NCBI RefSeq assembly: GCF_000025625.1
Contig: NC_013922.1
Span: forward strand, 2,108,001-2,172,000
Origin: Natrialba magadii ATCC 43099
GTDB lineage: Archaea; Halobacteriota; Halobacteria; Halobacteriales; Natrialbaceae
DNA: 64,000 nucleotides
Reading direction: 5' to 3'
The position numbers and the translations under genes are program-made. Below the pieces are notes generated by a model. The model was not told the DNA's origin and did not search any database. It saw only the letters and a list, made by a program, of their open reading frames with translations. Every line of letters begins with the position of its first letter. Position 1 is the stretch's first letter. Shown here piece after piece: positions 1 to 40,189 of this stretch.

Positions 1-79
1 TTGGCGATCCATTTGCAGACCGGTACTCGCGTTTGCCGCCTCGTGATCGTTTTTGCATCTCCTGTTCGTGTCTTGATGT

Positions 80-34375: not shown

Positions 34376-34801
34376 TCAGGTAAAACCCTTCCGAATCATC
34401 TCGATGAATTCTGATAACTCCCCCTCAGGAACTTCCCCGATTTCGAGTGAACCCGGGTCGTCAATCATGTTACTCAGGAACACGATAGCCTTCCAGTATT
34501 TCCCGTCCTCACCGAGGTCGTGATCGTCGTCTCGGTCGGCACCAATCGCGTTCGCCACTGTCCACATGTTGTACAGCAGCACCGCGTAGCCGAACAGGAA
34601 CATTCGGTGTTCGATCTGACTCGATCCGGACTGTGGCAGAAACCGATTCTTGATCACTCGATATGAGGTCTCTACCCTCCATCTGCCACGGAATTTCTCA
34701 GCCAGTACCTCCGCGCCGTTTCGCTCCTTGGTGGCGAATTCTCGCGGGTCGCGGTTGGTGTAGAACTGCGTCAGCGCGTCGGTCGGGTCGTCGATAATCA
34801 G
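34376..34801 (-). pseudogene. DDE transposase, C-terminal fragment
   Basis: About 140 codons resemble the C-terminal end of an IS4/ISH3-type transposase: KFRGRWRVETSYRVIKNRF carries the conserved YREK-like glutamate region, followed by RMFLFGYAVLLYNMWTVANA. Its stop lies 79 bases from the inverted repeat at 34297, as expected for an IS 3' end. The upstream catalytic aspartates are absent. The family assignment is by motif memory only. Confidence 0.7.
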
Positions 34802-34983
34802 CATACTGGCATTAGTACTACCTAGCGTGCAAGATGTCGAGAATATATGCAGCAATCAGGTCCTGTTTTCACTGATATTATGTTGGATCAAAATTATTGT
34901 ATCTTGAACTAAACGCTGGAATGCCTGGTCTACTCTCACAGAATGCGTGATGAACGTGTGGGAGTTAGAGGCGTCTATTCGAG

Positions 34984-36887: not shown

Positions 36888-37070
36888 TCACCCCTCGTCA
36901 CAAACAACGTCTCGCAACTCTTTGAGCAGTTCCGGGTGATGTTCTGCGAGAACATCGACATCTGTCTCCAATTCATCGATTCTGCTACGCACACGGTGGA
37001 TCGCCTGGTATCGTTTTTCATCAGATACAGTAACCTCACCGGTAATTCTCTCACGGTCAGTCGTTGTCAT
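36888..37070 (-). CDS. Small acidic haloarchaeal hypothetical protein
   Basis: 60 residues from the ATG at 37070 (MTTTDRERITGEVTVSDEKR). An N-terminal loop is followed by a long helix (YQAIHRVRSRIDELETDVDVLAEHHPELLKELRD) and a Cys near the end. Its regular coding character and typical amino-acid use support a real gene. I do not recognise a function. It points away from the RAMP cluster. Confidence 0.6.
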   Translation of the reverse strand: MTTTDRERITGEVTVSDEKRYQAIHRVRSRIDELETDVDVLAEHHPELLKELRDVVCDEG

Positions 37071-37213
37071 AATGGCTCGGTATTTGCTCACGTACCGTGA
37101 TTCAGAGACCATCTACTTCTACGTTAGCACCAAAGCAACCTAACTTTGCACCATAGCCAATAGTTTGCTATAATGCTAAGTTCTAAGTTGGTGGCCAATA
37201 GAGATGTAGCTGA

Positions 37214-37269
37214 GAAGCGCGGGATTGCTGAAAATGAGACCGGTGTTGAAGGCACCGACCCCGCGCTTC
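37214..37269 (+). ncRNA. Candidate structured RNA upstream of the RAMP cluster
   Basis: GAAGCGCGGG (37214-37223) pairs perfectly with CCCGCGCTTC (37260-37269), and inside the 36-base interval CGGTG (37241-37245) pairs with CACCG (37253-37257) around a TTGAAGG loop. GCTATAAT at 37168-37175 would place a start near 37198, just before the structure. Strand and transcription are inferred. It is not a CRISPR repeat array because only one copy exists. Confidence 0.35.
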
Positions 37270-37576
37270 GTGGAGCACACGAAGCATGAAAAACTCGACC
37301 CTAAAACCAGATGAAGGCATCGGACTGATGCTGTCTGGCGATATGAAGCAGCGGGGTATCCTGCTGCTGTACCATGACAGTGAACCGCACTGCAGGGAGC
37401 CGCTTGAAGCTAACGCGAAGACGCAACTGAAAAAGTTAGAACACTCCTGCGAGATGATTACTAATGATTGCCGAGACGGTGGTGGGAACGGACGACTTGA
37501 TCCACCAGCAGCACGTGGGTGGTGTCGTCTATGTCTCTCTCGACGCGCTGAGGAAGGCACTCGACACTCGCTGACC

Positions 37577-37610: not shown

Positions 37611-38474
37611 ATGATTGAAGACATCGACCGCGACGTATTCGTGCGAATCCAGACTGACCTGCTGGTGGTCGGTGACAGCATCATGACCGATAGACACCAC
37701 GCCTCGAACGGCAACTACGAGGACGACGACCCGCAGAACCAGATTGGCGGCATCATCCCCGCCTTTCCGCTCTCGGGCTGGCTTCGCCACGGAATGGAGC
37801 GCGTCGTTCACGAATACGACGGCACCGCCTGTCATCCTGGCGAGGCCAACGCGAACTTCATGAAGGAAGACGTCTACGAGCGCGATCTCGGCGACGGCTA
37901 CCACGAGAAGGGTGCGTGCATCGATGATCCCAAAGAAGACAACGGCTGCGTGGTCTTCGACCTCTTCGGCGGCTTCGGCAACCAGCCGGGAAAGGTGATG
38001 CGTCGCCCGATCAAGTTCAACCCCGTCCGCTCCAGCGTGGACTACACGTGCGGACAGGCCGAAGGCCACTACCGGCGGTTGAACCGGAATATCGTCTCTC
38101 GCAACCGGGAAGACAACCGCGAACCGCTCCGGAACGCCGAGGTGGATGCCGTCGCCAATCTGGACGGCTGCTGGCATCTCTCGTTCCGGGAGACGAAGCC
38201 CGAGTTCATCGGTCTCCTCGCGGAGGGGATCGACTTCCTTGATGAGCACAAGACGAACTTTATGCACCAGCTCGGTGGCGCGCGCAACTTCGGCGCGGGG
38301 ATCGTTGATTGCCACCTCATCAATCCGCTGTACGAGGAGCGCGAACTGAAGTGCGTCTTCGACCGCGGGAAGGGCAACACGAACAAGATGGACGAGAAAG
38401 ACGACCGGTGGGCCGAAGAGTACCGCCCGGCGTTCGCGGATGCGCTGGAAGAGCGCATCGCGGAGGGGCTGTAG
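37611..38474 (+). CDS. Cas7-like RAMP protein (HRAMP-type)
   Basis: 287 residues from the ATG at 37611 (MIEDIDRDVFVRIQTDLL). The pattern follows Csm3/Csf2-type Cas7 proteins: strand beta1 VFVRIQTDLLVVGD; the IGGIIPAFPLSGWLRHGMER block (45-64) corresponding to the family's P-x-x-P-G-S-S-L-K-G-x-x-R; VVFDLFGGFGNQPGKV (114-129) for the C-x-L-F-G region; and a Gly-rich HQLGGARNFGAGIV loop (219-232). Cas7 proteins form the RNA-binding backbone of class 1 effectors. This family is highly diverged and has no obvious catalytic aspartate. Its stop abuts the next start. Confidence 0.7.
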   Translation: MIEDIDRDVFVRIQTDLLVVGDSIMTDRHHASNGNYEDDDPQNQIGGIIPAFPLSGWLRHGMERVVHEYDGTACHPGEANANFMKEDVYERDLGDGYHEKGACIDDPKEDNGCVVFDLFGGFGNQPGKVMRRPIKFNPVRSSVDYTCGQAEGHYRRLNRNIVSRNREDNREPLRNAEVDAVANLDGCWHLSFRETKPEFIGLLAEGIDFLDEHKTNFMHQLGGARNFGAGIVDCHLINPLYEERELKCVFDRGKGNTNKMDEKDDRWAEEYRPAFADALEERIAEGL

Positions 38475-39257
38475 ATGGCCAAGAACGTCGCAGTCAGCGA
38501 CTTCCAAGGCGACGGCGGCCAGGACATGATGATCGCCGCGTACCGGCACGACGCCCACAAGCTCAACGGTGAGACGCATGACTACGCGCCGGACACCTTC
38601 AACGGCGTCCCGGTCAACCAGACCGTCCCGCACGGCGCGGACGGCGACGCGTCGGCGCTCTCACGACCCAACGGGAAGCCCGAACAGACGGTAGACAACC
38701 ACGAGACGCACTACCGGCTCTCGCTGCTGACGGGCAACTCTCACTACGACCCCGAGGAGTTCTCACGCCCGCGTCTTTCTGAGGCCATCAACGACCTGCT
38801 GACGGGCTCCGGCCCCGAGGCGATGCATCGGGCGTGGCTCACGTCGGACGTAACGAGCGGGTTCAACGAGAGCATCTACTACCCGTACACGAGCTTGAAG
38901 TACCACACGCTGCTCGTAGCGGCGCTCTTGGACAACTACCGCGCCGGTCACGAGTTCCCCGATCTCCACCTGGTCGTGGACGACGCCGAGGAGATCGTGC
39001 CCCACCGGACGGTCTACGCGGGCGACCGCTTCTCGCTTCGAATCGACGAGAGCGCGGGCGGGCAACCATGGGCGCGCCTTGGAAGCCGTCCGTGGCGGTC
39101 GTGGGCGTCAGCGTGGAAGCGCCTCACCGCGCACCCGCTCGATGTCAATCACGACAAGCACGACATGGTGCTCGATGCGAACCTCCGGCGGATCTGGAGT
39201 TGGAGCACCGCGCTCCAGTACATCGAGGATCTCGAAATCCGGAAGGTGAGCCAATGA
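38475..39257 (+). CDS. Uncharacterised RAMP-cluster protein
   Basis: 260 residues. The ATG directly follows the TAG of the Cas7-like gene, with GGAGGGG (38462-38468) as ribosome-binding site. No RAMP glycine loop is visible. Features are an N-terminal segment rich in Asp, Gly and His, SEAINDLLTGSGPEAMHRAW, the aromatic YYPYTSLKYHTLLVAALL, and a Trp-rich C-terminal part (GSRPWRSWASAWKRL and LRRIWSWSTALQYI). By position it is the conserved protein of unknown function reported in HRAMP loci. It could be a third, very diverged backbone subunit, but I see no support for that. Confidence 0.65.
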   Translation: MAKNVAVSDFQGDGGQDMMIAAYRHDAHKLNGETHDYAPDTFNGVPVNQTVPHGADGDASALSRPNGKPEQTVDNHETHYRLSLLTGNSHYDPEEFSRPRLSEAINDLLTGSGPEAMHRAWLTSDVTSGFNESIYYPYTSLKYHTLLVAALLDNYRAGHEFPDLHLVVDDAEEIVPHRTVYAGDRFSLRIDESAGGQPWARLGSRPWRSWASAWKRLTAHPLDVNHDKHDMVLDANLRRIWSWSTALQYIEDLEIRKVSQ

Positions 39258-40189
39258 CCCGCATCCAGCAGGTTCATTGGGAACTCGACATGGACTACCT
39301 CGGGCACCCGTACTACGTCTCGGGGAACGCGATTTACCACGCGCTCGGGATGCAGCTGGAACACGACGTCCACCAACACATCAACGCCAGTCACGGGATG
39401 TTCGTGCCGGGGCAGTTCGGGACGTTCCCCGAGGAGCACTCGCAGAGCGGGATTCGCCCGTACATGGGGTCGTCGCTCCCCGACGTGGAGAGCTACGACG
39501 ACCTGTTCCTCTTCCGGCATTCCGATCATCCCTGGCTGCTCGATACTCGGCCCCGAGACGGGCTGAACGCCCACGATATCCGGTTCCAGAACAGGATGCC
39601 CGCGCTGGCTCACGAGACGATCATGGGCCGGCCCGACGACGCTCGGAAACAGCAGCAGACCACGCGCTGGTACGTGAACGCCTACTTGCACGCCGATGAC
39701 CCGGACGTTCTGCCCCTCGGCGAGGACGTGCTTGACGGCCTCCAGTTCGGAGGCAAACGGAACTACGGCTACGGGACGACCACATTGAAAGACACGCAGG
39801 TCGTTGACTTGGAGGCCCTGGACTACTCGCGTCTCGAAGACGGCGAGGCGTTCATCCTCGAACTCGTGACGCCGTTCGTCCTCCGGTCGGAGTACCCGAA
39901 GGCGGACAACGTGGACGTGCCGTGGTGGTGGAGCGTAGACGATGGCGCGCAGCTGCGCCACCGCCTGGAGAAGGTCATCGAGGGCGGCGACGTGTACGAG
40001 TTGGAGACCGTCGATCACGGCGTGGTCGTCGGCTACGACGGCAACCGTCCGGTGGAGACTGCGATGTCAGTACTCACTCGGGTCGGGAACCACTCGAAGT
40101 ACGGTTTCGGAGAGCTTCGAGTGAAGCCAGTCACTCCAGACGAAACTAACGTCAAGAAACAAATAGAAAAGCCGGAGCCGGAGCACTGA
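39254..40189 (+). CDS. Cas5-like RAMP protein (HRAMP-type)
   Basis: 311 residues. Its ATG overlaps the preceding stop by 4 bases (ATGA), and GGAAGGTGA at 39241-39249 is its ribosome-binding site. A first glycine-rich loop, LQFGGKRNYGYGTTTL (163-178), sits mid-protein. A second, VGNHSKYGFGELRV (277-290), near the C-terminus resembles the G-rich loop of Cas5/Cas6-type RRM folds. Two such loops suggest tandem RRM-like domains. Cas5 usually caps the crRNA 5' handle and can process it. Whether this one is catalytic is unclear: the histidines (His36, 40, 42, 120) are candidates only. A charged tail ends the protein. Confidence 0.68.
   Translation: MTRIQQVHWELDMDYLGHPYYVSGNAIYHALGMQLEHDVHQHINASHGMFVPGQFGTFPEEHSQSGIRPYMGSSLPDVESYDDLFLFRHSDHPWLLDTRPRDGLNAHDIRFQNRMPALAHETIMGRPDDARKQQQTTRWYVNAYLHADDPDVLPLGEDVLDGLQFGGKRNYGYGTTTLKDTQVVDLEALDYSRLEDGEAFILELVTPFVLRSEYPKADNVDVPWWWSVDDGAQLRHRLEKVIEGGDVYELETVDHGVVVGYDGNRPVETAMSVLTRVGNHSKYGFGELRVKPVTPDETNVKKQIEKPEPEH

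Follow-up and report, generated by a model that had tools for sequence, protein, structure and literature searches.

Phage early transcripts that open with a structured RNA, encoded opposite an immunity gene, are known from the put RNAs of HK022 and the nut sites of lambda. Riboswitches and strand-exchange leaders have two exclusive stems that share one strand and lie beside an expression platform, and in the PeSLs of T4-type phages a promoter and a hairpin stand before many different small early genes, an arrangement that suggests exchange. Among haloarchaeal viruses, the T4 transcript of phiH1 is needed for lytic growth, lies back-to-back with rep and is repressed by Rep, which binds the T4 promoter region in phiH; ORF49 of phiCh1 is also regulated by Rep, and antisense and processed RNAs are documented for the L region of phiH (PMC4284463). 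HRAMP, the haloarchaeal RAMP system, is array-less and has Cas7-like and Cas5/Cas6-like genes, and according to its reviews nucleases are typical of it, not obligatory (PMC8730458, PMC12669027).

The stretch of DNA analysed here (the window; 64,000 nucleotides of the Natrialba magadii ATCC 43099 genome) carries three RAMP genes which, like HRAMP, include Cas7-like and Cas5/Cas6-like members without an array, and a structured RNA lies upstream of them (Table 1). The Cas7-like and Cas5-like RAMP genes were recognised by weak profile and fold matches; Foldseek related RAMP-A (model pLDDT 71) to Cas7 chains of types IV, VII and III (E 3e-5), and family searches with RAMP-B gave no match. No HRAMP-associated nuclease gene (HNH or PD-(D/E)xK) was recognised among the neighbouring genes that were translated and scanned. 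As such nucleases are typical rather than obligatory, this does not exclude HRAMP, although the locus differs from that system in this respect, and also in that the RNA is not restricted to HRAMP. The same genome has a second HRAMP cluster (L062; G000 C1:2858000-2870500), whose copy of the RNA scores far higher (101.8 bits under covariance model R1, see below). At 34376-34855 on the minus strand lies a C-terminal fragment of a DDE transposase; related transposases of 540-630 amino acids occur near more than 30 loci, and several lie directly upstream of the unit formed by the regulator gene and the RNA.

Table 1. Features of the window at and around the structured RNA (positions count from the first base of the window).
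Feature	Position	Strand	Remarks
Divergent gene for 60-aa S protein (phrog_26393)	36891-37070	-	start 143 nt from the RNA
TATA-like element CTAAGT	37183-37188	+	31 nt before the RNA; same position as the box of relatives
Structured leader RNA (covariance-model match), ATG at its end	37214-37288	+	R1 34.8 bits; R2 53.1 bits, E 1.7e-8 (this copy is itself among the R2 seed sequences)
P1, 5' strand	37214-37223	+	two-sided changes in relatives at 5/9 modelled P1 pairs
P2 region	37224-37239	+	weak in the window (2-3 pairs), strong in most relatives
P3 hairpin CGGTGTT-GAA-GGCACCG	37241-37257	+	two-sided changes at 5/6 P3 pairs
P1, 3' strand	37260-37269	+	CTTC half doubles as 5' strand of P4
P4, alternative hairpin GCTTCGTG-GAGCA-CACGAAGC, abuts the ATG	37265-37285	+	95.5% of cells paired, 39 two-sided changes
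First ORF downstream of the RNA, 110 aa	37286-37618	+	drifts in this clade, little codon-position bias
RAMP-A, Cas7-like backbone protein	37611-38474	+	weak Csm3 profile match; Foldseek
RAMP-B, conserved HRAMP-cluster protein	38475-39257	+	kept beside A and C in relatives
RAMP-C, Cmr3/Cas6-like RAMP	39254-40189	+	Cmr3 profile E 5e-6; weak Foldseek match to Cas6

A preliminary description of the window had pointed to a perfect 10-bp stem enclosing a CGGTG/CACCG hairpin, and both are present, the stem being formed by GAAGCGCGGG (37214-37223) and CCCGCGCTTC (37260-37269) and the inner hairpin by 37241-37245 and 37253-37257. Taken by itself the stem is a weak and unremarkable finding, because 10-mer stems with comparable spacing form 31 overlapping, or about 17 distinct, hairpins in the window; the 141-nt fold of this copy has a z-score of -2.28. 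Comparison is what gives the stem significance. A further hairpin, 37265-37272/37278-37285, competes with the stem for its 3' strand and is included in the minimum-energy fold.

RAMP-A relatives were drawn from 391 genomes of the class and from GTDB contigs. Blastn of the stretch upstream gave separate matches to 37202-37296 before many HRAMP loci whose surroundings otherwise differ, and compensatory changes were visible among the matched copies. A descriptor scan recovered the same architecture, in almost wholly different letters, at distant loci including one (L119) in which RAMP-A identity is only about 31-34%. The architecture, of about 80 nt, is an outer stem (P1) around two hairpins (P2 and P3), followed on the 3' side by a hairpin (P4) that shares the 3' strand of P1 and terminates at an ATG. 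The fold is kept before most HRAMP clusters and compensatory change is abundant, which bears out the conserved structure suggested in the preliminary description.

A first MAFFT alignment misplaced P2 and P3, and RNAalifold on that alignment retained P1 only; alignments from covariance models were used instead, R1 being built from 13 copies and R2 from 64 aligned matches. When the 64 copies are aligned by structure, 96.0% of pair cells contain standard pairs, compared with 35-45% in slid controls and with none of 500 shuffles as high, and two-sided compensatory changes occur at 17 of 22 pairs, including all seven of P2. Fitting the alignment to the structure favours a high pairing score; the covariation is more than a fitting effect, since the gap to the controls is large and unfitted examples (the blastn pairs, L119 and the GAACCC-type variants) show the same. 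Pairing of P4, which lies outside the modelled structure, was also matched by none of 500 shuffles. The shared strand varies jointly with both of its partners, GAAGC/GCTTC/GAAGC becoming CAGC/GCTG/CAGC in L119, and the triple being GAACCC/GGGTTC/GAACCC in L076, L103 and L112. G-U cells outnumber A-C cells (86 versus 27), and the operon strand is therefore the strand that folds. The hairpin is a real, conserved folded RNA, for which no Rfam family scored above its gathering threshold. A second conserved stretch, 25-37 nt past the ATG and within the ORF (37311-37323 in the window, with equivalents in 78 copies), forms a GCCGGA/TCCGGC hairpin in one subtype and may extend the RNA element.

Across the four closest copies, divergence is 2.7-5.3% in the RNA, 7.5-22% in the ORF behind it and 6-13% in RAMP-A. 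In these relatives the ORF stays open and changes almost equally at all codon positions; what is conserved is therefore the RNA rather than the peptide after it. Many loci share only the first 10-15 residues of the ORF, after which unrelated small proteins follow. An ATG stands at the 3' end of the RNA in all 78 distinct copies examined, and at L089 it is the start of the RAMP-A ORF itself, which speaks against the separate transcript proposed earlier. In ChaoS9 the annotated start of gp64 (L179 11998-12603) lies upstream of the RNA, and the conserved ATG directly after the RNA is the likelier start of this gene.

Upstream of the fold, a TATA-like box is found at -40 to -27 in 62 of the 78 distinct copies, with a sharp peak at -31/-32 (shuffled sequences: mean 11, maximum 20). 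By this comparison CTAAGT is more likely to be the promoter element of the window copy than GCTATAAT (37168-37175), the preliminary choice, because its distance from the stem (-31) is that of the TATA-like box in relatives. A divergent small regulator gene was recognised beside 67 of the 78 copies, encoding an S protein in 34 and a winged-helix protein in 33. The S protein family occurs in haloviruses, so that with its own S gene the window has the divergent small regulator characteristic of the viral leaders. About half of the copies have the S protein instead of the winged-helix repressor, for which it could be a substitute regulator.

Of the described systems, the T4 region of phiH1 and the ORF49 region of phiCh1 are in the same place as the RNA, at the start of an early operon opposite a winged-helix repressor. 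An equivalent P1/P2/P3/P4 fold was found by position and by eye in phiH1, phiCh1 and HJTV-4, and the annotated T4 start site of phiH1 (34556) is the first base of this fold. Neither R1 nor R2 detects any of these three folds, and phiH1 differs in that its first ORF begins about 75 nt beyond P4, whereas in the RNA family the ATG abuts P4. Our search, which the primary phiH and phiCh1 papers lay outside, found no report of the fold in phiH1 or phiCh1. The window has in common with the viral leaders the P1-P2-P3 fold with its alternative P4, P2 being weak. Its TATA-like box at -31 would fit a transcript that begins with the first bases of the fold, as mapped in phiH1. The put and nut RNAs are alike in place, but their hosts and folds are different, and to our knowledge strand exchange of the P1/P4 type is not a feature of put RNAs. 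Riboswitches and strand-exchange leaders have in common with the RNA the exclusive stems with a shared strand; the RNA, however, has a start codon in place of a terminator, no known ligand and no Rfam match. PeSLs, like the RNA, combine promoter and hairpin before varied small early genes, but the RNA is archaeal and larger, with a three-way fold and an alternative hairpin.

We consider it probable that the RNA is the 5' leader, with two states, of an early operon of viral type and that HRAMP operons have captured it repeatedly. Its identity as a leader is well supported, and a promoter-leader module of viral origin is the best explanation of its setting. P1 and P4 are mutually exclusive, one strand being common to both. 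When either was forced, the energies differed by a median of only 0.2 kcal/mol (61 copies; -30.3 versus -30.1 for the window copy), a near-equality that is partly due to the sequence identity of the two outer strands. The joint conservation of both outer strands is what a strand-exchange switch would need.

In such a switch, transcription would begin at P1 or a few bases before it, from a promoter divergent from the S or winged-helix repressor gene, a layout that would resemble the lysogeny regions of phiH and phiCh1, with a small regulator gene divergent from the leader promoter. The nascent leader would take one of two exclusive, nearly isoenergetic folds. In the first, the 5' strand would pair with the middle strand, so that P1 closes P2 and P3 and leaves the bases beside the AUG unpaired; in the second, the middle strand would pair with the bases directly before the AUG, and P4 would mask the start region. 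We infer that a bound factor, possibly a ligand, or the timing of transcription may pick the fold and thereby set the level at which the first early gene is expressed. In the window as at other loci, HRAMP operons would then occupy the slot of viral early genes and be expressed through the leader switch. Since no ribosome-binding motif that P4 could hide is visible, translational control by P4 is a guess.

A survey with R2 found 127 copies in 81 of 194 haloarchaeal genomes, and the eight genomes with matches in a draw across the phylum all belonged to the order of the window. The RNA is also present on plasmids such as pNRC200 of Halobacterium salinarum NRC-1 (219771-219854), in IMG/VR contigs and in the isolated tailed viruses BJ1, ChaoS9, Humcor1 and DL1, in each of them in the gap opposite a winged-helix or S gene. 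Around copies that stand without HRAMP, tblastn searches with structural and early proteins of viruses gave a mixed outcome, about 14 of 35 regions matching, and we therefore do not claim proviral status for every copy. Two consecutive identical CRISPR spacers, CGCCCGACCGCGCTTCGTGGGGCTCACGAAGCATGC, at L164 (G118 C1:399528-399674) match P4 and its surroundings; related mobile elements have therefore been targets of immunity. Genomes carry up to six copies, some in tandem or close together; at L153, L175, L095 and L090 two copies lie 1.2-2.8 kb apart in one genome or plasmid.

Such multiplicity, together with the conserved loops, would suit a small RNA that is processed out of the leader and acts in trans, for instance in superinfection control, with the mRNA as its carrier, and the antisense and processed RNAs of the phiH L region offer a precedent (PMC4284463). 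However, the fixed ATG junction and the divergent regulator favour action in cis, and we think this explanation unlikely.

The preliminary description had favoured a guide or scaffold RNA dedicated to the array-less HRAMP complex, which Cas7-like and Cas5/Cas6-like proteins would load. An RNA partner is expected of a Cas7-like RAMP-A and a Cmr3/Cas6-like RAMP-C, and the association is strong: the RNA lies 30-1700 nt upstream on the same strand at 63 of 96 HRAMP loci (a set that includes some duplicates), with RAMP-A identities from 31 to 100%, and some other HRAMP loci carry GAACCC-type variants, found by eye. It is not exclusive, however. Only 16 of the 127 genomic copies lie upstream of RAMP-A, isolated tailed viruses carry the RNA without HRAMP, and the RNA always leads into an ATG. 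On the RNA tree the HRAMP-linked copies are scattered among viral and other copies and are not one lineage, their distribution needing 14 changes, at least 7 of them forced by supported branches. The survey and the tree rule out an RNA confined to HRAMP, and dedication to the effector genes is quite improbable; of the preliminary RNA candidate the conserved structure stands, while the separate transcript and the guide or scaffold role are not supported. The simplest account is that HRAMP operons came repeatedly into a promoter-leader slot of viral type, or the slot to them; it fits an association that is strong but not exclusive and argues against an HRAMP-dedicated RNA. RAMP-A itself gave no match when IMG/VR viral contigs were searched with exact peptide patterns, and HRAMP in the slot may therefore reflect other mobile elements.

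A combination of the two ideas is decidedly speculative: HRAMP operons may have retained the viral leader they captured for the sake of the RAMP complex, which would use it as an invariable, built-in guide or bait. If it held, the leader, having the same sense as incoming viral leaders, would act against a conserved early region of related tailed viruses, and its target would be the same stretch that the G118 spacers target.

A DNA element, that is, an operator with an inverted repeat to which the divergent repressor binds, would agree with the adjoining repressor gene and with the binding of Rep to the T4 promoter region in phiH (PMC4284463). Against this, three strands covary, G-U exceeds A-C on one strand (86 to 27), loop lengths vary, and the entire fold comes after both the TATA-like box and the mapped T4 start; we regard an operator as very unlikely. 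A chance hairpin or a small coding sequence has next to no probability: 10-bp stems are common in the window and an open frame (37174-37287) crosses the RNA in the window copy, but covariation far above the controls rules out the former, and copies of 65-92 nt with no constant reading frame the latter.

As a probable two-state leader of viral type, the RNA belongs to an apparently undescribed structured RNA family, with about 127 copies in the 194 surveyed genomes, whose members occur alike in tailed viruses of haloarchaea, in other mobile elements and in HRAMP operons. It provides a concrete candidate for a two-state leader beside the archaeal lysis-lysogeny region, and the virus systems already established for haloarchaea allow it to be tested. 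For HRAMP, an unexplained relative of CRISPR, it suggests expression from an early regulatory slot of viral type, and this leaves fewer options for when, and for whom, HRAMP works.
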